64,000 nt of DNA from Pseudomonadota bacterium (GTDB taxonomy: Bacteria; Pseudomonadota; Gammaproteobacteria; Steroidobacterales; Woeseiaceae), in the NCBI GenBank assembly GCA_027621915.1, contig JAQCAD010000003.1, positions 1 to 64,000 of the forward strand, written 5' to 3'. The stretch's first letter is position 1. Each line of letters opens with the position of its first letter. The notes beneath the pieces are model-generated. The model was not told the origin of the DNA, did no database searches, and saw only the letters and a list, made by a program, of their open reading frames with translations. Positions 60,023 to 64,000 of the stretch are shown here, one piece after another. The position numbers were made by a program, and so were the translations under genes.

Positions 60023-61270
60023 GTGTCCGAGAATAAAAAACAACCTGACTACGACATTGTTATCGCTGGTGGGGGCATGATTGGCACCAGCTTGGGCCTG
60101 GCGCTGGCGCCCCTGAATCTCAAGATCGCTGTCGTTGAAGCTGTCGCGAGAAGTTCCGAGGAGCAACCTAGTTTCGATGATCGATCCACCGCGTTGTCCC
60201 GCAGTAGTCAACGCATGTTCGAAGCAATGGGCCTTTGGCCGGATATCGTAACGGCATCGACGCCAATCAAGAGCATTCATGTATCCGACAAGGGGCATTT
60301 TGGATTTGCCCATATCGATGCCGCAGAACAAAAAGTTGAAGCCCTGGGTTATGTCGTCATCAACCGCGTTTTGGGAAAAGTTTTGCAGGATTCCCTGGCA
60401 GCCCTCGACAATGTCCAGATGATTTGCCCCGGCAAGATCGTTGCAGTCACGCCGGGTGACGATTTCGCCGAAGTGACCGTCGAAAAAGCTTCCGGCCCGA
60501 GAAATCTGACTTGCCGATTACTGGTCGCTGCGGATGGAGCCAATTCCGCGGTCCGCGATATGGTCGGTATCGGCGCCAAACAGGTAAGCTACGATCAGTG
60601 GGCGGTAATAGGCAACCTGCTGACCGAAAAGGCGATGGCGTATCGCGCGTTTGAGCGTTTCACCGAAGCGGGGCCGGTCGCGTTGTTACCGGTTGCCGAT
60701 GGTCGCGCTGCGTTTGTCTGGATCCAGCCGCCTGACGCGGCAAGGGCAGCGTTGAGTCTCGACGACGACGAGTTCGTGAAACAAATCCAGGACGCATTTG
60801 GTTTCCGACTTGGCAGGTTTTCCAGGGTTGGCAAACGCGCCGCGTATCCGCTTTCACTAAGTAAGGCGAACAGCCTGATATCGCGCCGTAGTGTCATCGT
60901 GGGCAACGCTGCTCATGGGTTGCATCCGGTTGCGGCACAGGGATTCAATCTTGGCATGCGTGATGTCGCCGCGCTGTGCGATTGTATCGCCGATGCACGT
61001 GCCGAATCTGGCGCTGCGCTCGACTGTGGTGACGCGACAATTCTGGAAAATTACGCTGAATGGCGAGCGCCCGATCACCGAAAACTGGTGCGATTTACAG
61101 ATGGCATTGTCCGTCTGTTTGGAGATTCCCGTGCGCCGGTAAGGATATTGCGAAATCTTGGCATGTTGGGATTTGACCTTGTTCCCGGCGTCAGGAAGAC
61201 GTTCGCAAGACACACGATGGGACTTGCAGGAAGATTGCCGCGTCTTGCCCGAGGCGTGCCGCTCGAATGA
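60023..61270 (+). CDS. ubiH: 2-octaprenyl-6-methoxyphenyl hydroxylase UbiH
   Basis: 415-residue FAD-dependent hydroxylase of the ubiquinone pathway. FAD motif 'IVIAGGGMIGTSLGLALA' (GxGxxG) near residue 13, 'DDRSTALSRSSQRMFEAMG', the 'RLLVAADGANSAVRDM' DG motif and 'NAAHGLHPVAAQGFNLGMRDV' (GD motif variant GN). Starts at GTG 60023. Its last four bases overlap the next gene (ATGA). UbiH rather than UbiI or UbiF is chosen from position after pepP. Confidence 0.88.
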   Translation: MSENKKQPDYDIVIAGGGMIGTSLGLALAPLNLKIAVVEAVARSSEEQPSFDDRSTALSRSSQRMFEAMGLWPDIVTASTPIKSIHVSDKGHFGFAHIDAAEQKVEALGYVVINRVLGKVLQDSLAALDNVQMICPGKIVAVTPGDDFAEVTVEKASGPRNLTCRLLVAADGANSAVRDMVGIGAKQVSYDQWAVIGNLLTEKAMAYRAFERFTEAGPVALLPVADGRAAFVWIQPPDAARAALSLDDDEFVKQIQDAFGFRLGRFSRVGKRAAYPLSLSKANSLISRRSVIVGNAAHGLHPVAAQGFNLGMRDVAALCDCIADARAESGAALDCGDATILENYAEWRAPDHRKLVRFTDGIVRLFGDSRAPVRILRNLGMLGFDLVPGVRKTFARHTMGLAGRLPRLARGVPLE

Positions 61271-62460
61271 AGCGGAAATACGATGTCGTTATTGTTGGCG
61301 CAGGCATGGTTGGCTTGGCGGCCGCCCGTCTATTATCCCGCGACGACCAGTTGCGAGTGATTGTGATCGATGCCGGCGCAAGGCCTGTCTTCAGGCCGGA
61401 CGAAGAAATGTCCTTGAGGGTCTGCGCTGTATCTCCCGGATCAGTCGGCATACTCTCGGAGATCGGCGCATGGCATCAGATCGTTAGTACGCGCGCGTGC
61501 CCCTATCGCGATATGAAAGTCTGGGACGCGACCGGCAACGTCGAGGGGCCGGAAACGCTTTCTTTCGGCGCGGCAGAATTCGCCGTGGCACAACTCGGAT
61601 TCATTGTTGAAAATGTTCTCATCCAAGACGCATTGTTGCGGCAAGTTGATCAGTCAGATGTCGTTGTTCATTTCGATTCCTCGATCAGGTCGCTCGCCCG
61701 GTCCGGGCATCGATTTGAAATTGAACTGGAGTCGGGTGAAAAAATGACGCCGGATCTCCTCGTTGGCGCGGATGGCGCCAATTCGTTTGTACGCGGTACA
61801 GCCGGTATCGCCATCGAGTCCTGGCCGCATGCGCAAAAAGGGCTTGTTACGTGTCTCAGGCCGGAGCTAAGCCATCGAAACACGGCATGGCAGAGATTCC
61901 TCAAGGACGGCCCGATCGGGTTGCTGCCACTTGATGACGGGCGCGTATCGATTGTCTGGTCGACTACGCCGGCAGAGGCAGATGAAGCTATGCAGATGTC
62001 CGACAGTGCTTTGTCAGCAAAACTTTATGAGGTAACTGATGGCGTGCTGGGCCGGGTGACGGTTGCCGGTCCACGCGGAGCATTTCTGCTCAATTCGCAA
62101 CATGCAAAAGAGTATGTGCAGGATGGTCTCGTTCTCATCGGCGATGCAGCGCACACCGTACATCCACTGGCCGGACAGGGCGTCAATCTGGGATTCGCAG
62201 ATGCCAGTAAATTGGCACAGATCGTTTCGGCAGCGCTGCGAGCTGGCGAAAACCCCGGTGACCTACCGGTACTGAGAAATTACGAGCGGGCGCAAAAGGG
62301 GGCCAACAAGACCATGCTGCATTTTATGGATGGGCTGAATCGTTTGTTCTCGAATCGCTCAGCGTTGCTTGCGCGGCTGCGTGGCGCCGGAATGTTTATG
62401 TTCAACAAGAGCGGCCCGATACGCGCGCATGCCGTGCAGGTCGCGCTTGGAATCAGATAA
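61267..62460 (+). CDS. ubiI: UbiI/VisC-type FAD hydroxylase
   Basis: 397-residue FAD-dependent monooxygenase, probably the C5-hydroxylase UbiI. 'VVIVGAGMVGLAAARLLSRDD' near the start, 'SLRVCAVSPGSVGILSEIGAW', 'LLVGADGANSFVRGTAGI' and 'LIGDAAHTVHPLAGQGVNLGFAD' give the FAD motifs. In a coq7-containing genome the regioselectivity of such paralogs can differ, so the exact step is not certain. Overlaps ubiH by ATGA and is convergent with the iron-sulfur gene. Confidence 0.85.
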   Translation: MKRKYDVVIVGAGMVGLAAARLLSRDDQLRVIVIDAGARPVFRPDEEMSLRVCAVSPGSVGILSEIGAWHQIVSTRACPYRDMKVWDATGNVEGPETLSFGAAEFAVAQLGFIVENVLIQDALLRQVDQSDVVVHFDSSIRSLARSGHRFEIELESGEKMTPDLLVGADGANSFVRGTAGIAIESWPHAQKGLVTCLRPELSHRNTAWQRFLKDGPIGLLPLDDGRVSIVWSTTPAEADEAMQMSDSALSAKLYEVTDGVLGRVTVAGPRGAFLLNSQHAKEYVQDGLVLIGDAAHTVHPLAGQGVNLGFADASKLAQIVSAALRAGENPGDLPVLRNYERAQKGANKTMLHFMDGLNRLFSNRSALLARLRGAGMFMFNKSGPIRAHAVQVALGIR

Positions 62461-62484
62461 CGTGCTGCGGACGAAAAAGGTCTG

Positions 62485-63549
62485 TCACGCCGACTCTTCC
62501 TGTCGTTCCGCCCGTTTTCGGAGTTGCTCAATAATTCTGACGCCTTTGCCTGGAATACTCCACGGACAAATCGAAATGCAAATTGCACAACCCGCCGATT
62601 CGTTAAAGTAGGGAATGCATTTATCAAAGTCGACGTACCATTTGTGGACTCCCCGAACCAAAGTTTTTTCCGGCATGATGGCTTCTGGCGGACATGCGTT
62701 CGCACAGACCTGGCAGCGGACACAAAAGTCGTCGACGTTGTAGGTCTCTTTTTCAGTTGGTATCAACGGGATGTCCGTCAGTACGGCGGCGAGACGAAAT
62801 GACGAGCCGAATTCCTTGTTGATGATTGAGCCGTGTTTCCCCAGTTCTCCGAAACCGCATTCGATCGCCGGTGGAATGAGCAAGACCGGTCCGGCCATCG
62901 GGCCGCCCAGCGGTGTGGCGTCCCAGCCACGCTGCCGAATCCAGGATGCGATGTCCTTCGCCGCTTTGGCGCCGCGGCCATATTGTCGAATTACTTCGGC
63001 GCCGGCGGACGTGGCTGGTGCGGTCCTGATGCGCTCATAGTCGTGCGCGACGCCGATCATGACCATCCACTTCTGAGTAATGGTTATGTCCGTGAATGCC
63101 CATTCAGGCCGAAACGCAACTATTCCAAAAAGCTCCATGTCGAGCGTTTGCACATGCGCCCGTAGTTGAGCTGCCCATGCTTCGGCGGATTGCTGCAGTG
63201 GATTGTCAGCAACGCCTGGTAATTCGATTGCCAGGATTTCGGCGCGGTTGGCACGCGCTTTATTGATCTGCTCGTCGTTCGCGTTCTGAGTGTAAAACCA
63301 TTTTTGCAGCTCGCCGTGTGCCAGCGAATCAGGATCGTGCCAGTAAATCGGTGATGCCTGCCGCCGCGCCGGTTCGCCCACGCCATTAATGGCATTGCCG
63401 GAGACGTTCGGCATCAGTGATACCTGCTCGGATTTCGGCTTGAAGGGACGGTAAGGAGATCTGGCCATCTGCGGCTCCGTGGTTTCCGAGTCTGAATATT
63501 GCCATGAACGGGCCCGCCGTTTGCGAGATACCTGGTGATTTAAATTCAT
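62485..63549 (-). CDS. Cytosolic reductive-dehalogenase-like iron-sulfur protein
   Basis: 354 residues from ATG 63549 (an ATG at 63618 would add 23). The C-terminus carries two 4Fe-4S motifs: CVRCQVCANACP at residues 276-287 and CX9CX2CX3CPW at 311-330, with the reductive-dehalogenase-type spacing and 'KWYVDFDKC' before the second. The middle part (ITITQKWMVMIGVAHDYERI, 'PLGGPMAGPVLLIPPAIECGFGELGKHGSIINKEFGS' in parts) matches the corrinoid-binding core of RdhA-like proteins. No Tat signal peptide and no rdhB anchor gene nearby, so it is cytosolic, not a respiratory dehalogenase. Epoxyqueuosine reductase (QueG) is related but less similar. Confidence 0.8.
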   Translation of the reverse strand: MNLNHQVSRKRRARSWQYSDSETTEPQMARSPYRPFKPKSEQVSLMPNVSGNAINGVGEPARRQASPIYWHDPDSLAHGELQKWFYTQNANDEQINKARANRAEILAIELPGVADNPLQQSAEAWAAQLRAHVQTLDMELFGIVAFRPEWAFTDITITQKWMVMIGVAHDYERIRTAPATSAGAEVIRQYGRGAKAAKDIASWIRQRGWDATPLGGPMAGPVLLIPPAIECGFGELGKHGSIINKEFGSSFRLAAVLTDIPLIPTEKETYNVDDFCVRCQVCANACPPEAIMPEKTLVRGVHKWYVDFDKCIPYFNESAGCAICISICPWSIPGKGVRIIEQLRKRAERQEESA

Positions 63550-63602
63550 GTTTCGGCTTTCACGGATAGCAATGCGGCCCTGTTGCATTGAATATTCGCC
63601 GT

Positions 63603-64000
63603 ATGCGGGACATTGCAATCAATCGAATTATGACGACCGACCCACTTACGGTTGGGCCAAATGTGTCTGTTGCGGTGGCCAGGGAGTTGCTGGAATTAAA
63701 CGGTATTCACCATTTGCCGGTTGTGGAGGATGGTGTGCTGGTCGGAATTCTGTCGTCGTCCGATCTTCTGAAACTGCACGTCTTGCGAAGACGCAAACAG
63801 GCGCTGGAAGCGATTACAGTTTCCCAGGTTATGGAAGCAGACCCGGTGACACTTGATGTTTTCGCCGACCTGATCGATGTGGCTACCAAGCTGTCCGAAG
63901 GCGGCTTTCACGCGCTGCCCGTTGTCGAGGCAGACAATGTGCTGGTCGGGATTGTGACCTCGACCGACCTGATCAATCATCTTCTGAGGCAGGTGCCGCG
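63603..64000 (+). CDS. Two-CBS-domain protein, partial
   Basis: Starts at ATG 63603 and runs open to the window's end (about 132 residues seen). Two CBS domains in tandem: 'INRIMTTDPLTVGPNVSVAVA' with 'HHLPVVEDGVLVGILSSSDLL', then 'VSQVMEADPVTLDVFADLIDVA' (in parts) with 'HALPVVEADNVLVGIVTSTDLI'. CBS pairs sense adenosine nucleotides. It may be a stand-alone CBS protein or continue into another domain. Divergent from the iron-sulfur gene, 53 bases apart. Confidence 0.82.
   Translation, partial: MRDIAINRIMTTDPLTVGPNVSVAVARELLELNGIHHLPVVEDGVLVGILSSSDLLKLHVLRRRKQALEAITVSQVMEADPVTLDVFADLIDVATKLSEGGFHALPVVEADNVLVGIVTSTDLINHLLRQVP

Follow-up and report, generated by a model that had tools for sequence, protein, structure and literature searches.

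A compact RdhA-like gene beside a divergent CBS-domain gene

The window analysed here, a stretch of 64,000 nucleotides, belongs to a Woeseiaceae-like MAG of a marine-sediment bacterium, whose genome is 95% complete. Close to its end lies a compact open reading frame resembling the reductive dehalogenases (RdhA), encoded on the minus strand and facing away from a CBS-domain gene (Table 1). The reading frame, its strand and its two 4Fe-4S motifs are as an earlier note on this DNA had them, while the length of 354 residues given there stands only as the reading from the first ATG, the start that we prefer giving 327. Residue numbers (Y190, R252, the cysteines and others) follow the 354-residue reading.

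Table 1. Features of the compact RdhA-like gene and its surroundings, in window positions
Feature	Positions	Strand	Basis
Compact RdhA-like CDS, preferred start (327 aa)	62485..63468	-	Orthologue starts; GGAG; predicted model (pLDDT 90.6); PDB matches
Same CDS, longer reading (354 aa)	62485..63549	-	First ATG; N-terminal gaps in relatives
Shine-Dalgarno-like GGAG	63475..63478	-	Precedes preferred start; sequence
Extended -10-like element TGGCAATAT	63496..63504	-	Resemblance to consensus; TGGCANNAT upstream of orthologues
First 4Fe-4S motif CVRCQVCANACP, residues 276-287	62689..62724	-	4 Cys in 42/42 family rows
Second 4Fe-4S motif C311...CAICISICP, residues 311-329	62563..62619	-	4 Cys in 42/42 family rows
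Tyr190 codon	62980..62982	-	Equivalent to SmPceA Y246, DhPceA Y337 and NpRdhA Y426 by alignment
Arg252 codon	62794..62796	-	Equivalent to SmPceA R305, DhPceA R396 and NpRdhA K488; Phe in QueG
Divergent CBS-domain gene, 5' part	63603..64000	+	Pfam CBS, 96.3 bits, two stretches; continues to C9:64277

Conservation and consensus signals make codon 28, a methionine, the more likely true start of the protein. In the alignment, 20 of the 23 N-terminal positions of the longer reading are gapped in 36-40 of the 42 family rows, and Met28 is the exact start of the mechanically derived reading frame in 8 of 12 near orthologues, the remaining four extending upstream in frame. The GGAG lies 6 nt upstream of this codon, and the TGGCAATAT element ends 27 nt before it. 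Among 13 orthologues, TGGCANNAT occurs within 80 nt upstream of the start in seven (L039, L041, L042, L044, L047, L069 and L070), ending 26-30 nt before the start in six of them and 6 nt before it in L070, and is absent from the same interval in the other six; base shuffles give a chance expectation of 0.05 loci. The 327-residue reading was thus preferred because of the orthologue starts, the GGAG spacing and the placement of TGGCANNAT and TGGCAATAT. Five of the upstream regions were aligned; TGGCANNAT resembles an extended -10 promoter. A sigma-70 scan of positions 62380-63700 returned no two-box promoter (shuffles give 0.7), and no Rfam RNA was detected at the gene at E values up to 0.1 (61000-64000).

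Examined by eye, the 27 residues that precede Met28 in the long reading contain arginines but no hydrophobic stretch following this basic N-terminus. Together with the eight orthologues that begin at residue 28, this agrees with the lack of a Tat signal noted previously.

The interval 62485-64000 takes in the start of the CBS-domain gene, which extends beyond the window. The 53-base gap formerly given between the two genes becomes 134 nt when measured from the preferred start to the CBS ATG. Their divergent pairing is real, but shared control as a general feature is unsupported: in a tblastn search with all loci fetched, a CBS gene stands beside the compact gene only in the query, L069 and L039, all of one genus, and it was rejected as a partner on account of this limited pairing. 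On its other side, the compact gene converges on a pair of flavin hydroxylase-like genes in tail-to-tail orientation, which are preceded on their own strand by a peptidase-like gene; these names come from reading the translations, not from a family search. No gene for a small RdhB membrane anchor adjoins the compact gene, whose neighbours are the flavin hydroxylase-like pair and the CBS gene, as expected from the missing B anchor first reported for this locus. Judged from their sequences, the query's neighbours look like housekeeping genes, and the local context names no substrate.

Cluster ligands and active-site residues

The two cluster motifs follow the patterns C276xxCxxCxxxCP and C311...C321xxCxxxCP, and all eight cysteines are invariant in the family alignments (42 of 42 rows, and 47 of 47 with five added loci). 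The RdhA-type motifs recognized at the outset are therefore kept throughout the family. Y190 and R252, the proton-transfer Tyr of the reductive dehalogenases and its Arg partner, both linked to catalysis at the corrinoid, are equally invariant, in 42 of 42 rows and in 47 of 47 once five further loci are included. They align with residues 289 and 348 of the 8q4h chain, corresponding after addition of 48 to DhPceA Y337 and R396, which the text available from PMC10624902 equates with SmPceA Y246 and R305. By count on 4ras, NpRdhA Y426 and K488 fall in the same columns; these two and R552 are the key residues of NpRdhA in the portion consulted of PMC10463259. Y190 is common to QueG also, and the R252 column holds Phe in the QueG rows. 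The VDS(A/G)P segment, which holds the catalytic aspartate (Asp134 of B. subtilis QueG), is present in 3 of 3 QueG-like rows and in 0 of 47 family rows.

At the column of NpRdhA R552 (position 315), all 47 family rows have Phe, the PceA and Ros-type rows Trp, and the NpRdhA types Arg, so that the pocket of the compact family differs from those of both groups. Position 70 is Trp in 44 of the 47 family rows and His in three. A GP loop at residues 216-217 occurs in 39 of 42 family rows and is missing from the RdhA references.

Both the Phe at the Arg552 column and the GP loop would suit an RdhA-fold corrinoid/4Fe-4S reductase that, like QueG with epoxyqueuosine, attacks a bond without halogen. 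In the catabolism of aromatics or acyl-CoA compounds this could be a C-O or N-O bond, an epoxide or an activated double bond. QueG provides the precedent, reducing a non-halogenated substrate within the superfamily. The Tyr/Arg pair of the dehalogenases is nevertheless invariant here and the VDS(A/G)P segment of QueG is absent, and we consider such a substrate possible, though rather unlikely.

Sequence and fold comparison

The NCBIfam reductive dehalogenase profile TIGR02486 matches the protein with 95.5 bits (E 5e-27), under its curated cut-off of 160.35; three family relatives score 94-114 bits and the paralogue on contig C34 of the same genome 160.2. No Pfam dehalogenase model was found at E values up to 1, only ferredoxin-type domains. 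A sequence search of the PDB returned DhPceA (8q4h) at E 6e-30, SmPceA at 1.5e-23, NpRdhA at 3e-17 and QueG at 7e-7. With TIGR02486 at E 5e-27 and PceA chains at E values down to 6e-30, the resemblance to RdhA is not due to chance.

An AlphaFold model was built from 21 sequences, namely the query and 20 relatives from named contigs, a subset of the collected family proteins; it reached a pLDDT of 90.6 and a pTM of 0.88. The predicted model shows the dehalogenase fold across the catalytic region (Z 26.7-27.7 over 281-292 residues): Z was 27.7 over 292 residues with an rmsd of 3.1 for DhPceA (8q4h), 26.8 over 288 residues for NpRdhA (4ras; residues 33-321 of the model against 279-591 only of NpRdhA) and 26.7 over 281 residues for SmPceA (4uqu). 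The value fell to 15.3 over 193 residues for QueG and to about 7 for MMACHC, other B12-trafficking proteins and nitroreductases. Foldseek gave the same order, dehalogenases, then QueG, then MMACHC, with E 6e-18 for PceA and about 0.01 for MMACHC, and with TM scores (query) up to 0.73 for NpRdhA and at best 0.47 for QueG. Since the dehalogenase matches begin near model residue 30 and those to QueG near residue 94, the protein has in common with the dehalogenases some 60 additional N-terminal residues.

The core fold common to MMACHC, in a host that appears to import corrinoid, raises the question of a cobalamin-handling protein devoted to reductive trafficking of the MMACHC/CblD kind, with no catalysis on an organic substrate. 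A Z of 7, however, is within the range that the tool calls common, the dehalogenases are by far the closest folds, and both 4Fe-4S motifs are conserved, as is the Tyr/Arg pair; we hold such a role to be improbable.

Phylogeny and distribution of the compact family

The tree included 54 of 57 collected proteins, the fragments L063, L064 and L065 being left out; L028 and L029, from which no reading frame was obtained, are outside it, the 5'-cut member L046 was kept, and the long NpRdhA-type proteins were trimmed to their catalytic part. The compact family forms a group of 42 rows with support 89/82. It is separated from QueG by a 100/100 split with a branch of 3.36, and the NpRdhA types (100/100) and PceA with two Ros-type rows (97/91) also fall outside it. 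The phylogeny that had been proposed against RdhA, QueG and NpRdhA thus sets the family apart from all three, and the protein does not group within QueG. Because long branches were flagged in the 54-protein tree, the branching order among the deep RdhA groups is uncertain.

A divergent epoxyqueuosine reductase would share with the compact protein the core fold, the K238 common to all three QueG-like rows and the H239 common to two of them, and the QueG profile TIGR00276 does give 48.1 bits. Its cut-off, however, is 200 bits, and E. coli QueG scores 510.5. QueG uses B12 and two 4Fe-4S clusters as cofactors. Unlike QueG, the compact protein has Arg252 in place of Phe, lacks VDS(A/G)P and belongs to a separate clade, and the genome has a QueG-like gene of its own on contig C58, which in the tree (as L001) falls together with E. 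coli QueG at a support of 88/77. Tree, fold and residues therefore led us to reject this identity, to which we give almost no credence.

Among 60 near genomes, own included, 25 have a match at 1e-15; in 19 the match reaches E < 1e-50, the level taken as compact family. Of 369 genomes sampled evenly across the class, 6 have a match at 1e-30 and 4, own included, have hits of at least 390 bits. A DNA-pattern scan of genome contigs yielded 27 loci, from MAGs of Woeseiaceae and other Gammaproteobacteria, from Alphaproteobacteria including Limimaricola isolates, from one Gemmatimonadaceae MAG and from two records named only 'Proteobacteria bacterium' or 'bacterium'. The query protein is 69-76% identical to four named Woeseiaceae/Woeseia loci. 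In Limimaricola hongkongensis (L063, 8001-8624), the match ends about two thirds along and the reading frame stops early, at 215 residues; judging from the sequence, this copy looks broken or misassembled. In the Gemmatimonadaceae MAG (L055, 2281-3240), some 1 kb separates the compact gene from a QueG-like one.

Gene neighbourhoods in other branches of the family

Pfam annotation covered a chosen set of 80 neighbour proteins, with no random-locus control. At two loci, L079 (4011-8253, G016:C32) and L081 (6037-9745, G020:C2), genes for a PrnB homologue (PF08933, about 590 bits), a PLP decarboxylase and the compact RdhA are co-directional; L079 also has an aldehyde dehydrogenase, MarR, a GNAT protein and a TonB receptor, and L081 continues with an SNF transporter. 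This arrangement suggests reductive dehalogenation of a halotryptophan-type metabolite. By its Pfam name and by PMC11791213, as far as its accessible text goes, PrnB is a haloTrp-type enzyme, and its presence at two family loci speaks against a non-halogenated substrate. PrnB occurs in 52 of 396 genomes of the order, and among 17 PrnB loci with wider flanks only these two (in G016 and G020) have RdhA beside it; none was found in the fetched flanks of the other 15, some of whose contigs are short. PrnB was accordingly rejected as a general partner of RdhA, the host genome itself having no PrnB.

Elsewhere, a luciferase-like monooxygenase and a TonB receptor lie near RdhA at L065, L078, L141 (G732:C106) and L144 (G637:C190), joined by an ADH-type reductase and a PF04199 cyclase at L141, as identified with Pfam, and at L144, where similarity or inspection by eye was the basis. 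Two RdhA copies in divergent orientation are present at L078 and again at L141, and one of the L078 copies is followed by a Rieske/VanA O-demethylase. Genes of acyl-CoA metabolism (acyl-CoA dehydrogenase, enoyl-CoA hydratase, ligase, thiolase and an old-yellow-enzyme type) occur at L076 and L077, and at L075 by similarity; L083 has P450, CMD, sulfatase, enoyl-CoA hydratase and BKACE neighbours, and a UbiD gene lies about 2 kb from the compact gene of L047. The acyl-CoA, P450, O-demethylase and cyclase neighbours of these branches would equally serve a reductase of non-halogenated bonds, for none of them needs a halogen. Several family loci have no catabolic theme (BrkB, BCCT, FTCD, ribosomal, tRNA-hydrolase and cytochrome oxidase genes), and no Pfam match was obtained among the five L073 neighbours scanned.

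A gene for an SNF (sodium:neurotransmitter) symporter stands directly beside RdhA at L071 (9935-11398), L081 (9962-11347), L067 (7864-9273) and G004:C9:120655-121995. These pairs span two different RdhA types, the SNF gene of L067 adjoining the host's own C34 RdhA tail-to-tail, and each of 8 genomes holds 3-5 SNF genes. The adjacency, a matter of few cases noticed after the fact with no comparison to chance, is suggestive; the symporters could import halogenated amino acids.

Corrinoid supply and further RdhA types in the host

The corrinoid pathway genes that the earlier note had proposed to look for gave a mixed picture: the draft genome yielded no CbiC, CobS or BtuR, an absence that is no proof of auxotrophy, while signs of corrinoid uptake and use are present. 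The sole cobalamin riboswitch match of the genome (G000:C11:10691-10908; L091, L093) lies 100 nt upstream of a gene for a BtuB-like receptor, which scores best with TonB-B12 (283.6 bits, cut-off 599.7). A PduO-type adenosyltransferase (210 bits) and four B12-binding matches were also detected. From the riboswitch before the receptor, the adenosyltransferase and the B12-binding matches, taken with the missing CbiC, CobS and BtuR, the host probably imports corrinoid.

The genome carries two further cytosolic RdhA types. The first, on C34 (G000:C34:223426; L067, 9289-10479), has 396 residues and groups with L030, a protein that carries exactly both motifs printed for Ros_A3X954 in the part of PMC13101508 at hand. 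The second, on C39 (G000:C39:55463; L068, 8288-10459), has 723-736 residues and is of the NpRdhA type, with Lys and Arg in place and no fused reductase. Neither a tryptophan halogenase nor PrnB was found in this genome.

Relation to described reductive dehalogenases

Ros_A3X954, a Tat-less RdhA from Roseobacter, converts 2,6-dibromophenol to 2-bromophenol with a kcat/KM of 1.5 x 10^4 per M per s and is oxygen-sensitive, according to the sections available of PMC13101508. Like this type, the compact protein is Tat-less and stand-alone, with two 4Fe-4S motifs of similar spacing (PMC13101508). The comparison was made through L030 and the C34 paralogue, not the Ros_A3X954 sequence itself; these two have the Y190 and R252 equivalents in common with the compact family but, unlike it, group with PceA, have Trp at position 315 and measure 388 and 396 residues instead of 327.

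NpRdhA, BhbA and JtRdhA are cytosolic, as the compact protein would be, and the latter resembles NpRdhA in fold (Z 26.8 over 288 residues) and in its Tyr426 equivalent. In the excerpts seen of PMC10463259, the NpRdhA types have an N-terminal extension, described as a duplicated cobalamin-binding domain, and JtRdhA, which favours dibrominated substrates, is also fused to a reductase. The compact protein of 327 residues has no N-terminal extension, and Arg252 and Phe315 take the places of Lys488 and Arg552, which rules out membership of the NpRdhA group.

To PceA (4uqu, 8q4h), the protein is similar in fold (Z 26.7-27.7) and in the Y246/R305 (Y337/R396) pair. PceA, however, leaves the cytosol by the Tat route and in D. 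hafniense forms a complex with a membrane subunit, PceB (PMC10624902, in part), neither of which applies here; a respiratory RdhA was rejected because no Tat signal or anchor was seen. T7RdhA/A6RdhA, reported in the available passages of PMC10008544 to bind corrinoid and two 4Fe-4S clusters upon expression in E. coli, is likewise RdhA-like, and its Y213 is the Y246 equivalent; its authors put it on the PceA branch, and it is set beside the compact family by description only.

The earlier description of such relatives as little studied needs qualifying, since there are catabolic RdhAs without a Tat signal that have been produced and assayed (PMC10463259 and PMC13101508, as far as accessible), but those that could be compared belong to other branches. 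In the open-licence literature, subscription papers being outside the scope, we found no paper on the compact branch and no assay of any of its members, and the branch is apparently uncharacterised. Woeseiales are among the dominant putative dehalogenating MAGs of trench-sediment microcosms in the passage available from PMC12750322, which is silent on the type of dehalogenase.

Predicted function and significance

On the strength of the fold, the cluster ligands and the Tyr/Arg pair, the compact protein is probably a cytosolic, stand-alone corrinoid/2x[4Fe-4S] reductive dehalogenase, forming a separate branch of the RdhA superfamily. The view of a cytosolic, non-respiratory RdhA relative, from which the analysis started, is upheld by the RdhA fold, the lack of Tat signal and anchor and the separation from QueG. 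Its role is best read as catabolism or detoxification of a small molecule; we infer corrinoid binding, the electron donor, halide removal and the substrate class. A soluble low-potential donor, ferredoxin or flavodoxin, would reduce the distal and then the proximal cluster, which would bring the corrinoid to Co(I). Co(I) would then take the halogen off an organohalide, small and probably aromatic, positioned above the corrinoid, with Y190 supplying the proton and R252 stabilising the Y190 tyrosinate. The halide would depart, and the dehalogenated product would enter ordinary catabolism or simply be detoxified.

Reductive dehalogenation is favoured by the fold Z-scores, the Tyr/Arg pair and eight cysteines, the separate clade, the signs of corrinoid use in the host, the catabolic neighbours in several other branches and the debromination of 2,6-dibromophenol by a Tat-less RdhA with similar motifs (PMC13101508). 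Weighing against it are the TIGR02486 score under its cut-off, the lack of a Pfam dehalogenase model, the failure to find CbiC, CobS and BtuR, neighbours that name no substrate, Phe at the NpRdhA Arg552 column, moderate clade support (89/82), non-catabolic neighbours at several loci and a host genome devoid of tryptophan halogenase and PrnB.

We tentatively propose, as an idea that may well prove wrong, that the compact proteins, which occur in many Woeseiaceae and here and there in Alphaproteobacteria, make up a third class of cytosolic reductive dehalogenase. They would dehalogenate marine natural products (such as halogenated tryptophan or tyrosine derivatives and halogenated methoxy-aromatics) to give heterotrophs access to their carbon. 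One Woeseiaceae genome can hold three cytosolic RdhA types, and might thereby add to halogen cycling in sediments without organohalide respiration. For marine sediments, dehalogenation is mostly treated as a respiratory process of specialised anaerobes; soluble compact RdhAs in Woeseiaceae, if confirmed, would point to heterotrophs that handle natural organohalides by catabolism. With 327 residues, unfused and without an anchor, the family would also offer a near-minimal RdhA for mechanistic work.
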